DNA of 40,459 nt, taken from the IMG/VR virus record IMGVR_UViG_3300021437_000046, positions 1 through 40,459 of that record; one strand, given 5' to 3'. Below, piece after piece: positions 3,928 through 40,459 of this stretch. Both the position numbers and the translations under genes were made by a program. The notes under the pieces were generated by a model, which did no database searches, was not told where the DNA came from, and saw nothing but the letters and a program-made list of their open reading frames with translations. Position 1 is the stretch's first letter; each line of letters begins with the position of its first letter. The DNA comes from a virus.

Positions 3928-4303
3928 AGACCCTAGCGGGTACATCATGTTCAAGGGTGAGGTAATTTCGTCTATTGTATGCTCAGGGTGTGGTATTGAG
4001 CTTGTCGAATGCAACGGTAGGCTTTACGGCATTCAAGGAACATACTACTTCACTACCGAAGAAGTTGAGAAGGGAGTTACTAAGAAGTCGAAGAAGTATA
4101 CGGATGTTAGGTATGATATGATTATATTTAGAGGTCTGGTATTCGTATTCGTTCCCACGTACATCACCATTGTAGCGAAGTGGTTTAATACCTCAGACAA
4201 TATCGCCTTCGCTCTAGGAGCAGGGGCAGCTATCTTTACAGCGGCCTATATTTTTCATAACTATCTTAAGAAGTCTGAGGACGATAACAAGGAGGAAAAG
4301 TGA
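3917..4303 (+). CDS. two-pass membrane protein with CxxC motif
   Basis: About 128 residues from GTG 3917, preceded by GGGGAGGAG; ATG 3887 in the same frame lacks such a site. The N-terminal half is beta-rich with one CSGC. The C-terminal half has two predicted membrane helices (MIIFRGLVFVFVPTYITIVA and IAFALGAGAAIFTAAYIFHN) and a charged tail KKSEDDNKEEK. This suggests a cytoplasmic domain anchored by a helical hairpin. No family was recognised. Its stop overlaps the next start (GTGA). Confidence 0.65.
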   Translation: MDIRDPSGYIMFKGEVISSIVCSGCGIELVECNGRLYGIQGTYYFTTEEVEKGVTKKSKKYTDVRYDMIIFRGLVFVFVPTYITIVAKWFNTSDNIAFALGAGAAIFTAAYIFHNYLKKSEDDNKEEK

Positions 4304-4599
4304 GGTACAGTGAAGGAGCCTACGTTACATTCGCTGTAGGAACAGCACCCCCTAAGTATTATACAGGGATTATTAAGGAGTACTTTCATGGATGTGATGA
4401 TATGCCTAACCTGTATCGTATCCTGAGTGATAGTGGAGTACTTACCATAGCCTACGAGGAGAAGATTGTGGGATACGCAACACCACAGAGGGACTGTAAC
4501 TTCTGGGAAGACGTCTGTTCCTGTTATGACGGGGCTAGTGATGAGGCCTATCCGGAACAGTGCGGTATCCACGGAGAAGAATACAGAAATGAGCGGTAG
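4300..4599 (+). CDS. hypothetical acidic protein (99 aa)
   Basis: It starts at GTG in a GTGA overlap with the membrane-protein stop, with GGAGG upstream. It begins RYSEGAYVTFAVGT-PPKYYTG and resembles a small beta-barrel. The C-terminal part is acidic and has six Cys (CDD, CNFWEDVCSC, EQCG), which might bind metal. No family was recognised. Confidence 0.6.
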   Translation: MRYSEGAYVTFAVGTAPPKYYTGIIKEYFHGCDDMPNLYRILSDSGVLTIAYEEKIVGYATPQRDCNFWEDVCSCYDGASDEAYPEQCGIHGEEYRNER

Positions 4600-4807
4600 C
4601 TACACAAGGTTTAGTAGGTCATCAGAGAAGGCCCATAACTACTCAATTACTGATGACCATAATCCTGAGATGGTCATGTATAATGCTGAGCAGTATAAGC
4701 TTATGTGTAAGAAGGCAGTACATTGGATTGAAAAGAACAGGCCAGAGGAAGATGAAGTAGCTTATAAGATGCTAGGATTGGAGGAATATAGAGATGGGAT
4801 CCTGTAA
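4589..4807 (+). CDS. hypothetical protein (72 aa)
   Basis: The frame is open further upstream, but ATG 4589, with ACGGAGAAG upstream and an 11-bp overlap with the preceding stop, gives a compact product starting MSGSYTRFSRSSEKAHNYS. The second half is helical (YNAEQYKLMCKKAVHWIEKN, then an acidic stretch and MLGLEEY). No family was recognised. Confidence 0.6.
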   Translation: MSGSYTRFSRSSEKAHNYSITDDHNPEMVMYNAEQYKLMCKKAVHWIEKNRPEEDEVAYKMLGLEEYRDGIL

Positions 4808-9581: not shown

Positions 9582-10061
9582 ATGTCCATGTTTGACTTTA
9601 CCTTTGAGGGCGTAACTCCAGCGTCTTTTGCCGTTCCCGGAGGTACGTATAACGCTATCATCTCTGACGTTAACGTTAAGCCAACAGCTAGCGGGTATAA
9701 CGGATTTAATATTACGTTCACTGTCGTGGACGGGGAATACGAGAATCGTACTATTAGGCAGTGGCTCAGGCTGCCCAGTCCGAACACTAAGCCTTGGACT
9801 TCTGCTAACGGTAGGGTAGTGTCTCCAGAGAAGCAGAATGAAGATGCTAAGTCTAAGCTTCTTAGGTTTCTTTTGGATATTGGACTTACTCAGGATCAGA
9901 CCGATAGCGTGAACGCTGATATGCTTATCGGTAGGTCCGTACTTGTTACGGTACGGCCGCGCAAGGATGACCCTGGTAATGTAAATGTTACTAAGGTTCA
10001 GGGTACTGATAGCCCATTTGATACCGGGCAGCCTACCGGCAATCCGTTCCTCTCTATGTGA
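9582..10061 (+). CDS. DUF669-type ssDNA-binding protein
   Basis: 159 residues. The N-terminal strand-rich domain ([35 protein letters not shown]) and the acidic/Pro-rich end GNPFLSM match DUF669-like phage proteins, which act as single-stranded DNA-binding partners of Sak4 ATPases. Gene order (nuclease, small protein, ATPase, this protein) supports a recombination or replication-fork role. It starts four bases after the ATPase stop. Confidence 0.78.
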
Positions 10062-10093
10062 TAAATAGTCCAACGCTAACAAGGAGCTATACA

Positions 10094-10693
10094 ATGCGTA
10101 AGACTGCTATCGTTATTGCAGCAACTATTCTCGCTGTTGCCGGAACTACCGCAGCCACTGCTGCTCCCGCTACAGTTAAGGCCGCTAAGACTGTTACTGG
10201 ACCCCGCGGCCCGCAGGGTATTCAGGGTATTCAGGGTATTCGCGGACTCCAGGGTATTCGCGGACTCCAGGGTATTCAGGGTATTCCCGGTGTAGCTGGC
10301 AAGGACGGCGCTACTGGGGCTATCGGCGCTACGGGAGCTGTCGGACCTCAGGGTATTCAGGGACCTCAGGGTATTCAGGGGCCCGCCGGTCCTGAGAGTA
10401 TTGTTAGGCGCTGCGGTACTGTAGAGGTTAACGCCGACTACGAGGCTCTTCCTGCTAGTGACCGGCGTCTCACTATTACCGGCCTTCCGGCATTCGCCAG
10501 TACCGGTTCGTACGATCTCACGGCTAACAACGCACTTGGTATCCCGGACGGCTTTCTGGCAGCCATTGATGTGGTCGCCATTCCCCGAATCAATGGTCAG
10601 ACGACAGCTATGTTCCGTATCAAGCCTTCTGGCTTCAACGGAACTGAGTCCTATTCCCTCAGGGTCTGCGACTTCGCTCTTAGTCTTGGCTGA
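10094..10693 (+). CDS. secreted collagen-like protein
   Basis: 199 residues from ATG 10094, with AAGGAG upstream. It has a clear signal peptide ([20 protein letters not shown] ending ATAA), with no lipobox Cys. About 25 Gly-X-Y triplets follow ([20 protein letters not shown] and similar), interrupted by [12 protein letters not shown]-terminal domain of about 85 residues with two Cys could nucleate a trimer. Collagen-like repeats are common in phage fibres, but those lack signal peptides. Here export by the infected host is predicted. It is isolated from the structural genes, so it behaves like a moron gene. The repeats are nearly identical at DNA level. Confidence 0.85.
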
Positions 10694-10747: not shown

Positions 10748-10821
10748 GGGGCGGTAGCTCAGTAGGTTAGAGCAGTAGTCTTATAAACTACCGGTCATGG
10801 GTTCAATCCCCATCCGCCCCA
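10748..10821 (+). tRNA. tRNA-Ile (anticodon UAU)
   Basis: A full cloverleaf is visible: acceptor GGGGCGG/CCGCCCC, D-stem GCTC/GAGC, anticodon stem GTAGT/ACTAC with loop CTTATAA (anticodon TAT), T-arm ATGGG-TTCAATC-CCCAT and discriminator A. The 3' CCA is not encoded. It would read AUA, a codon that is frequent by eye in the late leftward genes. Confidence 0.92.
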
Positions 10822-10831
10822 CGTATTACTT

Positions 10832-10903
10832 GGACTAGTAGCTCAGTGGAAGAGCGCTGCCTTTACACGGCAGATGTCGTAGGTTCGAACCCTACCTAGT
10901 CTA
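10832..10903 (+). tRNA. tRNA-Val (anticodon UAC)
   Basis: Cloverleaf: acceptor GGACTAG/CTAGTCT (first pair G-U), D-stem GCTC/GAGC, anticodon stem CTGCC/GGCAG with loop TTTACAC (anticodon TAC), and T-arm GTAGG-TTCGAAC-CCTAC. CCA is not encoded. It reads GUA, the Val codon contained in the main sense frame of the CTGTAGCG motif (CCT-GTA-GCG). Confidence 0.92.
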
Positions 10904-10928
10904 CTCCATACCCACTAAAGGAGGCATA

Positions 10929-32338: not shown

Positions 32339-32593
32339 TCAGATTGTGTTCGATTCCCTGTTAAGTCTAAGCGCATAAGTCTTGTCATTCTTGTTCAAGG
32401 TACGCAGATAGGCCTGAGTATACGTGCCCGCGTCAAGTGCCTGAAGTCTGGTGTCCAGGTCATTCATATTGCCGTAACTATCGTCCTCTACTAGCGTAGT
32501 AGTAATCCTACCGCCCTGCCTAGTAGTGTTAGCGCACTGGGCATCAACAAACCCGTGATTAGCAGTAATGTCAAGCTGAAGGCTGTTCGCCAC
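32339..32593 (-). CDS. small protein between portal and scaffold (84 aa)
   Basis: GTG 32593 follows GGAGG at good spacing; ATG 32608 in frame lacks one. The product starts MANSLQLDITANHGFVDAQC and continues with RITTTLVEDDSYGNMNDLDT. It overlaps the portal end by 23 bp. Possibly a head accessory or decoration protein. No family was recognised. Confidence 0.6.
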   Translation of the reverse strand: MANSLQLDITANHGFVDAQCANTTRQGGRITTTLVEDDSYGNMNDLDTRLQALDAGTYTQAYLRTLNKNDKTYALRLNRESNTI

Positions 32594-34610
32594 TTGGTAT
32601 ACCTCCATTCGGGTCTTGATTAGTCGCTACAGGGGTACCCTGAGCCATACTAGCCTGCTGCATAGCTTGATTAGCGGCAGCAACATGCATATTTACATGC
32701 GACTCAAATTCAATCTTTACAGCGTCAGGAAGTAGTTCGAACTGCTGAGTCTTCCTAAAAGTATTATGTACTTCTATATGTATGGCGTGATTATCCCAGG
32801 AATTTACTGGAAGAAGTGACTCCATGGGCGTAGGCTGCGGGGAATTTATCCCGTCTACACTAGCCTGGGGCGTAGATTGAAGTAGCTGCGCCTGTGCCTC
32901 TTGGAACTGCTGTATAAGCGCAGGATCTACCTTCTTGAGCTTTATATTCTCGCGCTGGGCCTGAGACTCATCTATCCTGAGTCTTTCCCACAGCCGCTGA
33001 GTACCTCCCATATCAAGCATCTTAAGACCATCCTGAGGACTAATGAATCCCATCTTCATCATGTCCATAAGAAGCGCTTGCCTCGCGGCCTTAGATACTG
33101 GGAGAGCACTACCGCCCTCCATTACTACATCGGTATTATTCTTTATATCGCTTCCCTTGAGAAGCATAACATCAAACCCGGCATCCGCGCCAGTGGTCCT
33201 GACCGTTCGCTCCTGATCCCAGTACTGAACAACTAAGTTAAGGGTCTGGTAGGCAATGTTTTCCCAGGCCTCTTCTACTGATGCGTATGTAGTACTAAGT
33301 ATACCGTCGTCTTTTTCCTGCAAGAAGGAGATAGCTGTAGCAGCAGTAACTCCAGTAGGAGCAGAACCTGTACTTACCTGGTGCTGCCCAGACAGGTCTT
33401 CTATATCCGATAGTATTCTATCCTGCTCCTGTATAACATAACCAGGAAGAGGAGTAAGAGCTACCTGAGTAGGGGGAGCCATCCCTGGAGTATACTGTAT
33501 TACCTGCCCGGGTTCCGTAGTCATCCTGCTTACATCTACAGAACCGGCTTGTGCAACCCACTGAGGTTTAGCCATTCTATTTCTGGCCTCAGTTATCTGA
33601 GACCGTACTCTATTATATTCCTGCTGTAGCGGGCGTACATCAGTAATAGAGGATTCGGTATAGAATACGCCAGTAGGTATATGCTCTATCTTAGTAAATG
33701 GGTACTGCCCATGGCTGTAAGGAATACCCTTATCGCTACAGTACACTACTCTATCGCCTATTACATGTACCAGACCCCCGTTGGGCAAGTACTTGCAGCC
33801 GTTGGGCTTAACCCACATCTCATAGCACATTACCGAATCAGGTTCGGCATTATTACCATTTAGATCCAGTACTATATCACTGAGAAGTTCATTACTGCTA
33901 CACACCTTGGATTCCATGCCCTTAAGCATTTCACCGTACTGCATACGAGCAGCTGCAAGAGTCATAGTGTGTACAGAAAGAACATAAGGCTGTTCCTGTA
34001 TATCTGTAATCCTAAGAAGAGGCACAAATAAGTGGTAAGGGGTTACAGCTGCAAACTTAACGTCACCAAGAGGTATACCTGGTCCTAGTGGGTTAGCAGG
34101 ATCAGGCGCTACAGGCCCCGCTGTCTTATCCCACCATGTTTTAATAAATCCAGTGCCACACACTACTGTCCAGAAAGCGGCTTCACGAAAAGCTCTAGGA
34201 GCTTTACTATTCCTAGATACACTTTCCCATATCTGTTCCGCAGCAAACGCCGCAGCCATATCTTCATCTTCAGACGTAGCAGGTATAACTGAGGCCGATG
34301 GCTTCTGCTGCGTAAGTCTAGCAAGTTCGGTTCTAATCATAGGTCGTATACGGTTAACAGTAAGTCGTACTCTATGCTTAGGCGCCTTAGGTACCATAAG
34401 TCTACCGCCCTGGGCGGTAGTAAACTCAAGGTACTGTTTCCCTGCAAAAAAGCTTATACTTATATCCCATTTAAGCTGCGTTTTATTTCTGGCAGCCTTC
34501 ATTTCCTTGTGAGCGTTAGTAATCCAGGATACAAGCTCACCATTTCGTTTTACTTCAGATAATAGCGAAGCCGGATCCGGTGTTACCGAGGTATTGCTCG
34601 AAGTCTCCAT
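32571..34610 (-). CDS. portal protein
   Basis: 679 residues, the length of P22-type portals. Recognised features include HRVRLTVNRIRPMIRTELAR, PRAFREAAFWTVVCGTGFIK-TWW, GQYPFTKIEHIPTGVFY, RPLQQEYNRVRSQITEARNR, DIEDLSGQHQVSTG and a long Gln/Ala-rich C-terminal barrel-like tail. It forms the dodecameric DNA entry ring. GGAGG precedes the ATG at 13 bases, with a minimal ATGTAA start-stop between them. Order terminase-portal-scaffold-capsid is canonical. Confidence 0.9.
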   Translation of the reverse strand: METSSNTSVTPDPASLLSEVKRNGELVSWITNAHKEMKAARNKTQLKWDISISFFAGKQYLEFTTAQGGRLMVPKAPKHRVRLTVNRIRPMIRTELARLTQQKPSASVIPATSEDEDMAAAFAAEQIWESVSRNSKAPRAFREAAFWTVVCGTGFIKTWWDKTAGPVAPDPANPLGPGIPLGDVKFAAVTPYHLFVPLLRITDIQEQPYVLSVHTMTLAAARMQYGEMLKGMESKVCSSNELLSDIVLDLNGNNAEPDSVMCYEMWVKPNGCKYLPNGGLVHVIGDRVVYCSDKGIPYSHGQYPFTKIEHIPTGVFYTESSITDVRPLQQEYNRVRSQITEARNRMAKPQWVAQAGSVDVSRMTTEPGQVIQYTPGMAPPTQVALTPLPGYVIQEQDRILSDIEDLSGQHQVSTGSAPTGVTAATAISFLQEKDDGILSTTYASVEEAWENIAYQTLNLVVQYWDQERTVRTTGADAGFDVMLLKGSDIKNNTDVVMEGGSALPVSKAARQALLMDMMKMGFISPQDGLKMLDMGGTQRLWERLRIDESQAQRENIKLKKVDPALIQQFQEAQAQLLQSTPQASVDGINSPQPTPMESLLPVNSWDNHAIHIEVHNTFRKTQQFELLPDAVKIEFESHVNMHVAAANQAMQQASMAQGTPVATNQDPNGGIPSGEQPSA

Positions 34611-35132: not shown

Positions 35133-36623
35133 CTATTCCCACTCTAGAGAACATAGTGTATCTACTCCTTCCGTAAATGCCCAGCTAGTTCTTGCTAAAT
35201 TAGTATCGTACCGCTTACCGCTAGTATCAATTTCCGCTACAGGTGGCTCTACCTCCGGGCCCTGTAGCGAAGGCATGAAGCTGAAAAAGTATCTAGCGGA
35301 ATCGCAAGCGTGGTCGTCCTTCTTGTGTATCTGTTCCTGCGGATTTCTATCTAACTGCGCAGCCTTAGTGGCAGCCGTCTTCCACCTAAGTCTAGGTATT
35401 TCCCAGATAAGGTTAGTGCAGTTATCCGCTATAATCCAATAGGGTTTATTAGTGTTAGGGTTAATTCCAAGGTACTGTTGAACCTTCAGTACTCCAGTCA
35501 TTACATCATTATTACCCGAGGATAAGCCTATACCGTTTATAGCGTATTCAGTCTGAATACTAGTCCCAGTAACTCCCTGCCGCTGCGCTGTAGCGGGATC
35601 AGCTATCCTAATAAGTGGCTTTGGTATCTTAAGCTCTTTTTCTACTCTTTTAACTTCTTTACAGTGCTCCGCTACAGTCATCTCCGCTTTGGAGTGCTCA
35701 TAGAAGGTAATAATGGTTCCGTCAGCCATAACGCTATGCCAAAGCCATGATGTCATGGCGTTATAGCCATGATCCATACTAGTATAAATAGTTCCCTTAA
35801 GCGCCTCTTCCAGTACTTCCTTAGTAAATGGTATAGTATGAGTATCTCTTTTCCAGTTCTTATATACTAGTCCGCCCATTTCAATGAAAGCTCCACACTC
35901 TCGTGCTTTTCTTTCATCAGGGTCAAGGCTATCTAGGTATCTCGCTACAGCTTCAGGGTTGAGGTAGGGATTCTCATGTATATCTACCTGGGTTACCGCG
36001 TCAGTTCCTTCACCAGGTTTATAAATAGCATCATGAATCCAGCTCATGCCATGAATAGGGGTAAGGGTAAGCCAGGCATCACCATTAGTGTCGATAAGTC
36101 GAGCCATGCACTCGTCATAAATAGTCTTAGGTGGCTCTTCATCAAACATAACGAAATGCCTACTAGTTCCAGCAAACGCGTCCAACCGCTGCTCGTAGCT
36201 CATAAATTCTAAAGTGGAGCCGTTCTTAAAAGTTAGAACTTTATCGTCACTATGATAGGCCCGTTCCCAACTCCCACCCTTTAACTCACTAGGGGGAACC
36301 CACTGCTTAAACTGAGGTATTAGTATCTGTTTAATTCCCTTATTATAGTCAACGCATACCGCTCTACCCCTAACTGGCGCTACAGGGGTACTCTTGTACG
36401 GGTGAGTTCCAGTCAGGTACCATATAGCCTCTACAACTCCCCCCACAGTCTTGCCACTTCGGTTACCACCAATATACAGTCTTGTCTTACTAGTACTTCT
36501 ATGAAAAGTCTCCTGCTTAGGGTGAGGTTTATAGGCGAGAACATTAGGTTCCCTGGCCTGTTGCCTAAGCTTCTCCGCCAGGTATCCCCAAGCTTCTATA
36601 TTGGTTACCGCACTACTGGCCAC
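35133..36623 (-). CDS. terL: terminase large subunit
   Basis: 496 residues. ATPase: Walker A GGNRSGKT (52-59), Walker B HFVMFDEE (156-163) and the coupling motif LTPIHG. Nuclease (RNase-H fold): SMDHGYNAM, IADPA and KKDDHACDSARYFF. It drives DNA packaging and cuts concatemers. It starts within the end of the Acb2-like gene (11-bp overlap). Motif copies encode PVAPV, DPATAQ and EPPVAE. Confidence 0.95.
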   Translation of the reverse strand: MASSAVTNIEAWGYLAEKLRQQAREPNVLAYKPHPKQETFHRSTSKTRLYIGGNRSGKTVGGVVEAIWYLTGTHPYKSTPVAPVRGRAVCVDYNKGIKQILIPQFKQWVPPSELKGGSWERAYHSDDKVLTFKNGSTLEFMSYEQRLDAFAGTSRHFVMFDEEPPKTIYDECMARLIDTNGDAWLTLTPIHGMSWIHDAIYKPGEGTDAVTQVDIHENPYLNPEAVARYLDSLDPDERKARECGAFIEMGGLVYKNWKRDTHTIPFTKEVLEEALKGTIYTSMDHGYNAMTSWLWHSVMADGTIITFYEHSKAEMTVAEHCKEVKRVEKELKIPKPLIRIADPATAQRQGVTGTSIQTEYAINGIGLSSGNNDVMTGVLKVQQYLGINPNTNKPYWIIADNCTNLIWEIPRLRWKTAATKAAQLDRNPQEQIHKKDDHACDSARYFFSFMPSLQGPEVEPPVAEIDTSGKRYDTNLARTSWAFTEGVDTLCSLEWE

Positions 36624-36813
36624 TATTCCTCGCTACAGCGGCAATGGCCCACATAAGTGCCTCCTCAAGATTAGTCATAGCCAGTGATTTCTCCCTACTA
36701 TCCGGTATAGCCCCGTTTATAATACCCATAGTAGCCCTAATGGCTTCCTTAATAGTTATGCAACCTGTGCTAGCATCAAAGTTAACCCGCTTATCAAGCT
36801 CTTCCGGTGTCAT
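36613..36813 (-). CDS. acb2: Acb2-like anti-CBASS cyclic-nucleotide sponge
   Basis: 66 residues. The C-terminal half PDSREKSLAMTNLEEALMWA followed by IAAVARN matches the hairpin motif of the Acb2/Tad1-type family (typically GREKSLA-T-LEEA-MWA-AAIAR). Acb2 proteins form small helical oligomers that bind cyclic di- and trinucleotides, so they block CBASS and related signalling defences. The N-terminal RVNFDAST corresponds to the usual RFSYHPP-like lead. It is encoded directly upstream of terL with an 11-bp overlap, so it may be expressed late as well as early. Activity is inferred from family. Confidence 0.78.
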   Translation of the reverse strand: MTPEELDKRVNFDASTGCITIKEAIRATMGIINGAIPDSREKSLAMTNLEEALMWAIAAVARNSGQ

Positions 36814-36845
36814 CTCAACCCTCTTTATAAGCTCTTTCGCTACAG

Positions 36846-37049
36846 TCAGGTTGTGCTATCCGTAGCCCCAAGCTTAACCAGTAGCGCTATAACGCTAGTT
36901 AAGGCAGAGTTGCCTGCTTTGGCTCCGGTTATAGCCATTCCGCTACACAGCAGTTCAGAGTCATCGCCATTATGCTTGTGGGCCCCCGGGCTGGCCTGGT
37001 ATTGGCCCCTCCCAAGGGAGTGGTTGGGATCCATAGGTGAGGTATCCAT
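36846..37049 (-). CDS. small structural-type protein with His-rich motif
   Basis: 67 residues from ATG 37049 (GGAGAGG upstream). The centre reads QASPGAHKHNGDDSELL, an H-x-H-x-G-x-D-S pattern found in phage tail-fibre or decoration proteins where it may bind metal. The rest is helical and hydrophobic (GNSALTSVIALLVKLGA). Likely a minor virion protein. Confidence 0.55.
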   Translation of the reverse strand: MDTSPMDPNHSLGRGQYQASPGAHKHNGDDSELLCSGMAITGAKAGNSALTSVIALLVKLGATDSTT

Positions 37050-37082
37050 TATATAATCCTCTCCACTATACAATCCTGCCTA

Positions 37083-37802
37083 TCAGCTAAGTCTAGTTAT
37101 AATCATAGTGCTACCGGCTACTATATTAGGAGTGTACATAAAAGTAAGTCCTATGGTTCCAGTACTTGTAAACTGAACCATCCACTCTACTTCGGGCTGG
37201 AAGCTATCGCTAACCCCACTAAGGTTAACACCACACAATGGTATAGCCGTGCTTAACCCATATAGGTATTTAAAAGCGTTGTACTCGTAAGTACTAGTGT
37301 CTATCCTACGCCATTTAGCAGTATTAAAAGTATAACTAACGGAGGTCTGAATAGCTACATAGGGAGTATTAGAACTACTTGAGTTCATAACTGGTAGGAA
37401 TTTAATATTCCACAGCCCCGGAACTATATTCCCGAAGATAAGCTCAGGTTCCGCTACAAAGCTACCATTATTATTACTATAGGTAGTTCCGGTCTTAGTT
37501 ACTATATTAGTGCTTCCAGCCCCAGTGAACACATTACTATAGTAGTCCTCTACCCACGCTCCCCCGGTGTATATCCCGTTACTCCAGGTTCCCGTGCTAT
37601 CCAAATAGTAGTGTTTCCCTGAGTCAGTGCACTTTATGAACTTCCCAGGATAATTATCCGCTACAGGTTTAGTGCTCTCGGTCACCAGTATAAGTCCCGA
37701 GGTCCCATCAAGCCTATTCCAGTTCCTAGTTATATCAGCCAAGGCCGCAGGATCTGAATTCTCAGGTATCCTAAGGCCAGTCCTACTAGTATAAGTTGCC
37801 AT
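37083..37802 (-). CDS. putative tail fibre / receptor-binding protein
   Basis: 239 residues; ATG overlaps the previous stop. It begins TYTSRTGLRIPENSDPAALA followed by DITRNWNRLD, an attachment-type start seen in phage tail proteins. Beta-rich, Asn/Ser/Thr-rich body follows (YYLDSTGTWSNGIYTGGAWV) and a jelly-roll-like C-terminus. A host-binding role is inferred. Confidence 0.6.
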   Translation of the reverse strand: MATYTSRTGLRIPENSDPAALADITRNWNRLDGTSGLILVTESTKPVADNYPGKFIKCTDSGKHYYLDSTGTWSNGIYTGGAWVEDYYSNVFTGAGSTNIVTKTGTTYSNNNGSFVAEPELIFGNIVPGLWNIKFLPVMNSSSSNTPYVAIQTSVSYTFNTAKWRRIDTSTYEYNAFKYLYGLSTAIPLCGVNLSGVSDSFQPEVEWMVQFTSTGTIGLTFMYTPNIVAGSTMIITRLS

Positions 37803-38629
37803 TAGTTCTCCTCTATAGCCGCTACAGTGCCACCTACGCCCCTACTCCCTGCCAGTAGGGCTAGCTCCCCGCCTATCTTATCTAGTACCGCAGGGTCAAC
37901 AACATTCCTGCTAATAATGTCGATAACCTTACTTAATACCTCAAGAGTAGTACTACCTGTAGTAGCCCCAGTATTATCCGCTACAGAGTCCCCTCCTGAC
38001 TTATGAAGATTATGGAGCATCTTGAAGGCAGTAGTATTACCTATAACTGCCTGCTCCACTAGCGCCTGAGTAACCTCAGGCATGTTATTATCAATAATAG
38101 ATTGAGTTCTATTAAATACTAGGTTCCTAAAGCTAGGTTCCTTCATCCAACAGTCATACATATTATAGCTACATCCGGCAGCTGCAAGCCTTTCCCTAAG
38201 ACTCTTTCCCGCTACAGTGGGATCAGTGAGGTACATTGCTACTTTAAACTGATCCTCAGTTAAACCATAGATAGCCTTAAGCTCATCTATTTCAGAGCCC
38301 CTGACAGGCCTATAGTAGTTCTCAGGCGGGGATGTAACTGTCGCTACAGGGGATGTAGCGACAGTATCAACCTGTGACCCCGCACCCGGAACCACATAAG
38401 CTACCCGCTCCAGTTCCTTAAGGTGAGGATTCACCGCGCTATCAGGCCACTTTAGGTTAAGCCCACGCATAAGAGCTTTATGCTGAAACCCCTTAGTAGC
38501 CATTATACCTCTTACTATAGTGACTGTAGTGTCTGCCGCTATCGCGGCATCCGCTACAGTCACACGCTTACCTAAGGCCACATTACCAGACAGATAGTTC
38601 AGAAGCTTAATCTCGATACTTGGAGCCAC
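37802..38629 (-). CDS. terminase small subunit-like protein
   Basis: 275 residues from GTG 38629 with AGGAGGTG upstream. The centre (MYLTDPTVAGKSLRERLAAA, then GCSYNMYDCWMKEPSFRNLV) is a helix-turn-helix of the phBC6A51 type. It is followed by the oligomerisation helices MPEVTQALVEQAVIGNTTAF typical of small terminases. It is the first late gene and would select phage DNA for packaging. The N-terminal region contains a second helix-turn-helix-like segment. A 12-bp hairpin of opposed motif copies lies in it. Confidence 0.7.
   Translation of the reverse strand: MAPSIEIKLLNYLSGNVALGKRVTVADAAIAADTTVTIVRGIMATKGFQHKALMRGLNLKWPDSAVNPHLKELERVAYVVPGAGSQVDTVATSPVATVTSPPENYYRPVRGSEIDELKAIYGLTEDQFKVAMYLTDPTVAGKSLRERLAAAGCSYNMYDCWMKEPSFRNLVFNRTQSIIDNNMPEVTQALVEQAVIGNTTAFKMLHNLHKSGGDSVADNTGATTGSTTLEVLSKVIDIISRNVVDPAVLDKIGGELALLAGSRGVGGTVAAIEEN
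38337..38365. other. 12-bp hairpin of opposed motif copies in the terminase gene
   Basis: ACTGTCGCTACA (38337-38348) and TGTAGCGACAGT (38354-38365) pair perfectly around GGGGA. The symmetry creates the peptide TVATSPVATV. As this gene is the likely packaging-site recogniser, the position invites comparison with a pac site. Confidence 0.85.
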
Positions 38630-38667
38630 GCTACACCTCCTATACCACTCCCGCTACAGGGAAGCAT

Positions 38668-38753
38668 CTATTCTCTATTCTCTATTCTCTATTCTCTATT
38701 CTCTATTCTCTATTCTCTATTCTCTATTCTCTATTCTCTATTCTCTATTCTCT
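38668..38753. repeat. heptamer tandem repeat (CTATTCT)n, about 12 copies
   Basis: CTATTCT repeats without error for about 86 bp in the gap between the leftward late genes and the rightward gene at 39054. The period is not a multiple of three and the repeated translation it gives is not a plausible protein. It may be a slippage-prone microsatellite, an iteron-like array or a DNA-bending element. Confidence 0.92.
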
Positions 38754-40294: not shown

Positions 40295-40332
40295 AGTACT
40301 TCTCGCTACAGGGAGAGGTGACGAGAAGTACT
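40295..40332. other. inverted repeat joining the motif to the terminal array
   Basis: AGTACTTCTCG (40295-40305) is the perfect complement of CGAGAAGTACT (40322-40332), which is the core of the first unit of the 15-bp array. A CGCTACAG motif starts inside the left arm and extends into the loop (40304-40311). The left arm can pair with any of the nine array units. Confidence 0.85.
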
Positions 40333-40459
40333 GTGACGAGAAGTACTGTGACGAGAAGTACTGTGACGAGAAGTACTGTGACGAGAAGTACTGTGACGAG
40401 AAGTACTGTGACGAGAAGTACTGTGACGAGAAGTACTGTGACGAGAAGTACTGTGACGA
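40319..40459. repeat. 15-bp tandem repeat at right end, 9+ copies
   Basis: ACGAGAAGTACTGTG repeats exactly every 15 bp from 40321 to the end of the window, where it is cut in the tenth copy. Each unit contains the palindrome AGTACT. The array runs off the edge, so its true length is unknown; it probably stopped the assembly. No match to the left-end 89-bp repeat beyond short words was seen. Confidence 0.95.

Follow-up and report, generated by a model that had tools for sequence, protein, structure and literature searches.

A divergent Acb2-family gene overlapping the large terminase gene in an uncultivated, probably actinobacterial phage

Characterised Acb2 proteins are hexamers, and the Acb2 homo-hexamer offers three CDN and two CTN pockets. 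In the Acb2 of Pseudomonas phage p26, Y11 and K26 represent the dinucleotide site and R67 the trinucleotide site. This protein (p26/gp24; PDB 7UQ2, 8H2J) and T4 Acb2 (Vs.4) are the founding Acb2s. In T4 Acb2, the exchange Y8A abolishes cyclic-dinucleotide binding (PMC12657218). The published Acb2 protomer consists of a short N-terminal helix and two long helices (PMC10419184, PMC12043709). In Tad1, an N-terminal antiparallel beta-sheet precedes two helices (PMC12043709).

The window, i.e., the entire 40,459-nt stretch of DNA analysed here (virus record IMGVR_UViG_3300021437_000046), encodes TerL, portal, DNA polymerase and SNF2-type helicase proteins whose best annotated matches (~34-44% identity) stem from Jasmine-group Arthrobacter phages, Cellulosimicrobium phage DS1 and Microbacterium phage Shocker. 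Its genome plan is the same as that of these relatives, and judged by such matches the window phage is a divergent relative of the actinophages Jasmine, DS1 and Shocker. Since its closest relatives are actinophages, an actinobacterial host is likely. The spring-water relative ctEqG8 carries whiB genes, whiB being an actinobacterial marker, and the G+C content of the window record is 46.5%. The initial annotation spoke of an actinobacterial phage, which is plausible in the light of these relatives. It further concluded that the host lineage carries cyclic-nucleotide defences. This step is not justified: within one plausible host order, a SMODS CD-NTase domain scored over the cutoff in only 13 of 149 sampled genomes, a lower bound obtained with one CD-NTase domain model only.

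The gene of interest lies in a late operon on the minus strand with the order probable terS, 239-aa gene, 75-aa gene, acb2, terL, 144-aa gene and portal. The relevant features are:

37802-38629, minus strand: 275-aa gene that opens the late operon, probably the small terminase subunit (phrog_24579, E 6e-4)
37083-37802, minus strand: 239-aa late-operon gene, no assigned function
36846-37073, minus strand: 75-aa conserved protein (phrog_36468, 8.6e-20)
36819-36824, minus strand: AGAGGG, Shine-Dalgarno-like site of acb2 by sequence, 5 nt upstream of the ATG
36613-36813, minus strand: acb2-like gene, 66 aa, Acb2/Tad1 hairpin PF24729
36627-36630, minus strand: AGGA inside the acb2 3' end, by sequence, 3 nt before the terL GTG
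35133-36623, minus strand: terL, large terminase, 496 aa (PF03237 46.8 bits, phrog_2), GTG start, overlaps acb2 by 11 nt
32571-34610, minus strand: portal protein, downstream in the acb2 operon (PF16510, 111 bits)

The acb2-like frame starts with ATG and its product reads MTPEELDKRVNFDASTGCITIKEAIRATMGIINGAIPDSREKSLAMTNLEEALMWAIAAVARNSGQ. Thus, the 66-residue frame overlapping terL exists as initially described and encodes the peptide quoted at that time, SREKSLAMTNLEEALMWAIA. Pfam profile PF24729 (Acb2/Tad1 hairpin) matched this product with 57.3 bits (curated cutoff 27; E 1.9e-15) over profile positions 15-58 of 58, and no other product of the 40.5 kb record gave such a match. PHROG 1454 matched as well (E 1.2e-14), and an independent family HMM, trained on 60-odd relatives with the window protein left out, recovered it with ~70 bits (E 3.3e-20). 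The profile search against the Acb2/Tad1 family that had been proposed as a check therefore returned a clear family match, and the window protein is a member of the Acb2/Tad1 hairpin family PF24729. None of the PADLOC models matched the window protein. One might argue that such a short frame, overlapped by several opposite-strand ORFs, is no real gene but a spurious ORF, out of frame with the genes it overlaps. However, multiple independent family matches (E 1e-14 to 1e-20) and the fit of acb2 into the operon with its 11-nt terL overlap leave this view with practically no probability, and on grounds of homology it is already refuted.

The tight coupling of acb2 and terL claimed in the initial annotation is supported as well, and the AGGA within the acb2 3' end possibly mediates translational coupling to terL. 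In relatives, the 75-aa phrog_36468 protein normally immediately precedes terL, whereas here acb2 intervenes. Homologues of this 75-aa protein were found in the related loci L002 and L004-L006, in Shocker (gp16) and in DS1. It carries the motif HTLGPG..QA..G.H.H.G.DS..LL.G..I.G..G..AL.SVI..L...GATDSTT.

An AlphaFold2 model of the window protein (pLDDT 89.4) comprises helices at residues 3-10, 16-35 and 40-64 and no strands. The predicted protomer thus has the Acb2-type layout of one short and two long helices, unlike Tad1. The nearest solved structure by sequence is PDB 9ptq, 'Acb2 homolog 43' (E 1.4e-3 with the single sequence, 3.4e-10 with a profile), for which our literature search found no describing paper; Tad1 chains rank after it in the profile match (E 4e-6). 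Similarity to T4 Vs.4 is weak by profile (E 0.1-0.4), and hhalign aligned only 22 residues of the last helix (45% identity, P 72.5%). In a viral fold search, six of the top eight hits bear the name Acb2/Tad1 hairpin protein, Jasmine gp9 among them, although the E-values are modest (6e-3 at best, the others weaker). Foldseek against the PDB recovered no Acb2 with the model, a search that is uninformative for such a small helical chain. Taken together, the Acb2-like family call of the initial annotation is backed by its matches in Pfam, in PHROG, among PDB sequences and among viral folds, as well as by the helix layout.

Within this family, the window protein is divergent, as judged from its residues. 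In 60 homologous viral proteins, conservation reaches 85% or more at 18 positions; the window protein differs at five of them (F10V, H13D, R22K, A29M and N57I), whereas each other member of the set differs at two at most. In addition, a loop adjoining H13D is ~6 residues shorter than in relatives. Position 13 is basic in all 60 relatives, in T4 (K), in p26 (R) and in 9ptq (H), while the window protein carries an acidic D. In contrast, the hairpin-core invariants R40, E41, A45, T47, E50, W55, A58 and R62 are all present. Residue mapping was stable in three alignments: F12 corresponds to T4 Y8 and p26 Y11, K22 to T4 K23 and p26 K26, and R40 to p26 R67. Pairing T4 Y8 with F10, whereby the key aromatic residue would be lost, was rejected, as all three alignments place F12 there. 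F10V, H13D and the loop deletion flank the mapped ligand-site residues. Given five changed near-invariant residues and a shorter loop, the ligand range of the window protein may differ from that of the family. Since F12, K22 and R40 are kept but H13D and the shorter loop are not family-like, we expect that cyclic-trinucleotide binding is likelier to be preserved than classical cyclic-dinucleotide binding.

The acb2 gene is accessory within the window phage group. It is absent from DS1, ctEqG8 and 13 TerL-related viral contigs (several of which are short fragments), and in Shocker a homologue is located at the start of the late operon. In Arthrobacter phage Jasmine (L016), two adjacent Acb2/Tad1-hairpin genes (4149-4448 and 4472-4672) lie directly before terL. 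Jasmine gp9 is a clear Acb2/Tad1 hairpin protein (63.8 bits); it is followed by the weak gp10 (66 aa, 22.3 bits, below cutoff), whose gene adjoins terL and whose product has lost RE and W of the hairpin motif. In Brad, only the weak hairpin gene remains before terL. Beyond this group, a direct search of viral contigs with the window protein as single query gave no matches, and an alignment query used in its place yielded 80 viral loci with acb2 homologues. In 29 of these terL was located, and acb2 is on the terL strand in all but one (28/29). After removal of near-duplicates and of contigs <20 kb, 19 contigs remained for a placement statistic: acb2 lies at most 2 kb from a TerL domain in seven, compared to 2.1 expected (p ~0.003, lineage-uncorrected and picked by similarity to the window protein), and within 5 kb in 12, compared to 4.7 expected (small sample, lineage-uncorrected). 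Thus, in a small sample, acb2 homologues are found near terL more often than by chance. Location in the late operon is not confined to actinophages.

What might such a gene do? The window protein is probably an Acb2-family cyclic-oligonucleotide sponge that serves phage counter-defence; hexamerisation, ligand binding and anti-CBASS activity are properties that we infer, the anti-CBASS function from homology. It would be made alongside the packaging and head genes, and its helical hairpins would assemble into an oligomer that would bind cyclic oligonucleotides from host CD-NTases. Sequestration would starve the effectors of CBASS, and of related type III CRISPR systems, of their signal without degrading it, and synthesis late in infection might be of use against CBASS systems that sense late phage products. 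A Tad1-type sponge, mainly directed at Thoeris signals (gcADPR) instead of CBASS signals, would leave a similar trace, as PF24729 does not distinguish Acb2 from Tad1, Tad1 chains match by profile at E 4e-6 and cross-reaction of sponges has been reported (PMC12043709). However, at 66 aa the window protein is all-helical in the model, lacks the N-terminal beta domain and finds its best PDB match in an Acb2 homologue, which makes a Tad1-type sponge quite improbable; Tad1 as the closer subtype was rejected for the missing beta domain.

Alternatively, the gene might encode an Acb2 relic, decaying or put to a new use, that kept the hairpin while ligand binding was lost, or that now serves the neighbouring packaging genes. 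The five altered near-invariant positions and the shortened loop would fit such a decay, as would the below-cutoff 66-aa hairpin protein (22.3 bits) whose gene is likewise the one immediately ahead of terL in Jasmine and Brad. Yet the reading frame is intact and preceded by a ribosome-binding site, the hairpin-core invariants are retained, the fold is confidently predicted, and since the relatives DS1, ctEqG8 and L002-L014 lack the gene, packaging does not need acb2. Consequently, we consider a relic unlikely and favour a sponge.

The position of such a sponge invites speculation. In staphylococci, the CBASS trigger cabRNA comes from the terS-terL region (PMC10686824). By analogy, acb2 might reside inside the terS-terL unit because transcripts of this unit can trigger CBASS, in combination with a remodelled pocket of new ligand preference; trigger and antidote would then be produced together. 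We regard this combined view as very doubtful, and the link of late placement to a terS-terL cabRNA trigger as speculative. RNA folding of the acb2 region revealed no excess structure (z 0.00), so that a local cabRNA-like element is not supported for the stretch that was folded. If terminase-side placement holds in wider sampling, the position of a counter-defence gene would be tied to what CBASS senses.

Besides acb2, the window shows further features. The octamer CTGTAGCG, which is not palindromic and often extends to CCTGTAGCGR, is present in 94 copies throughout the 40.5 kb, for example at 804-906, 36630-36638 and 36837-36845. Inside genes, 71 copies were counted, whereas reshuffling of synonymous codons gave an expectation of 3.5 (maximum 9), and TGTAGCG occurs 113 times against 5.2 expected. 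By analogy, this density is like that of HIP1 or uptake signals, and the octamer is possibly more unusual than the acb2 finding. Its density is low in the related loci checked (Jasmine, DS1 and Shocker). Host identification via the octamer failed, as genome matches were scattered and the viral contigs found hold local arrays only. Two tRNA genes lie at 10748-10904 (plus strand), one for Ile(TAT) and one for Val(TAC); the anticodon of the latter decodes GTA, the codon contained in the octamer. Perfect tandem arrays occupy the left end (89-nt unit, 1-216), 38667-38753 (7-nt TCTATTC, 12 copies) and the right end (15-nt GTGACGAGAAGTACT, 9.5 copies, 40318-40459). In the early region, a 211-aa protein (10058-10693, plus strand) contains collagen-like triple-helix repeats (PF01391).

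Compared to known systems, the window protein shares with T4 and p26 Acb2 the short N-terminal helix and two long helices in its model, the C-terminal hairpin motif A-x-T-x-L-x-E-A-x-M-W and the aligned pairs F12/Y8, K22/K23 and R40/p26 R67. In contrast, it measures 66 aa instead of 88-94 aa, lacks a long inter-helix insertion, has an acidic residue, D13, in place of the K or R of T4 and p26, and is only weakly similar overall. With Tad1 it has the C-terminal two-helix hairpin with SRE..A.T..EEALMW in common, but it reaches about half the Tad1 length, without the N-terminal beta domain. Its length class (typically 65-76 aa) is that of the PF24729-only proteins of actinophages and Firmicutes phages (PHROG 1454), such as Jasmine gp9, SpeedDemon gp77, Octobien14 gp100 and PDB 9ptq. 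The best matches among them reach 37-56% identity, and the signature RF-x-[YF]H ... [DG][SG]REKSLA-x-T-x-LEEA-x-MWANA-x-IARN is common to both, except that the window protein lacks signature residues F10, H13, R22, A29 and N57 and ~6 loop residues. Acb2-type genes of actinophages have already been described: Microbacterium phage Statler encodes a putative Acb2 (PMC13348362), and Mycobacterium phage StellaBean carries the annotation 'cyclic nucleotide sequestering protein'. Both belong to other lineages, however, and terL adjacency is not recorded for them. What sets the present case apart is how far the protein has diverged and where its gene lies relative to terL. The Acb2 family gains a divergent member from an uncultivated phage that probably infects actinobacteria, and its changed pocket residues would help to map those that set the ligand range.
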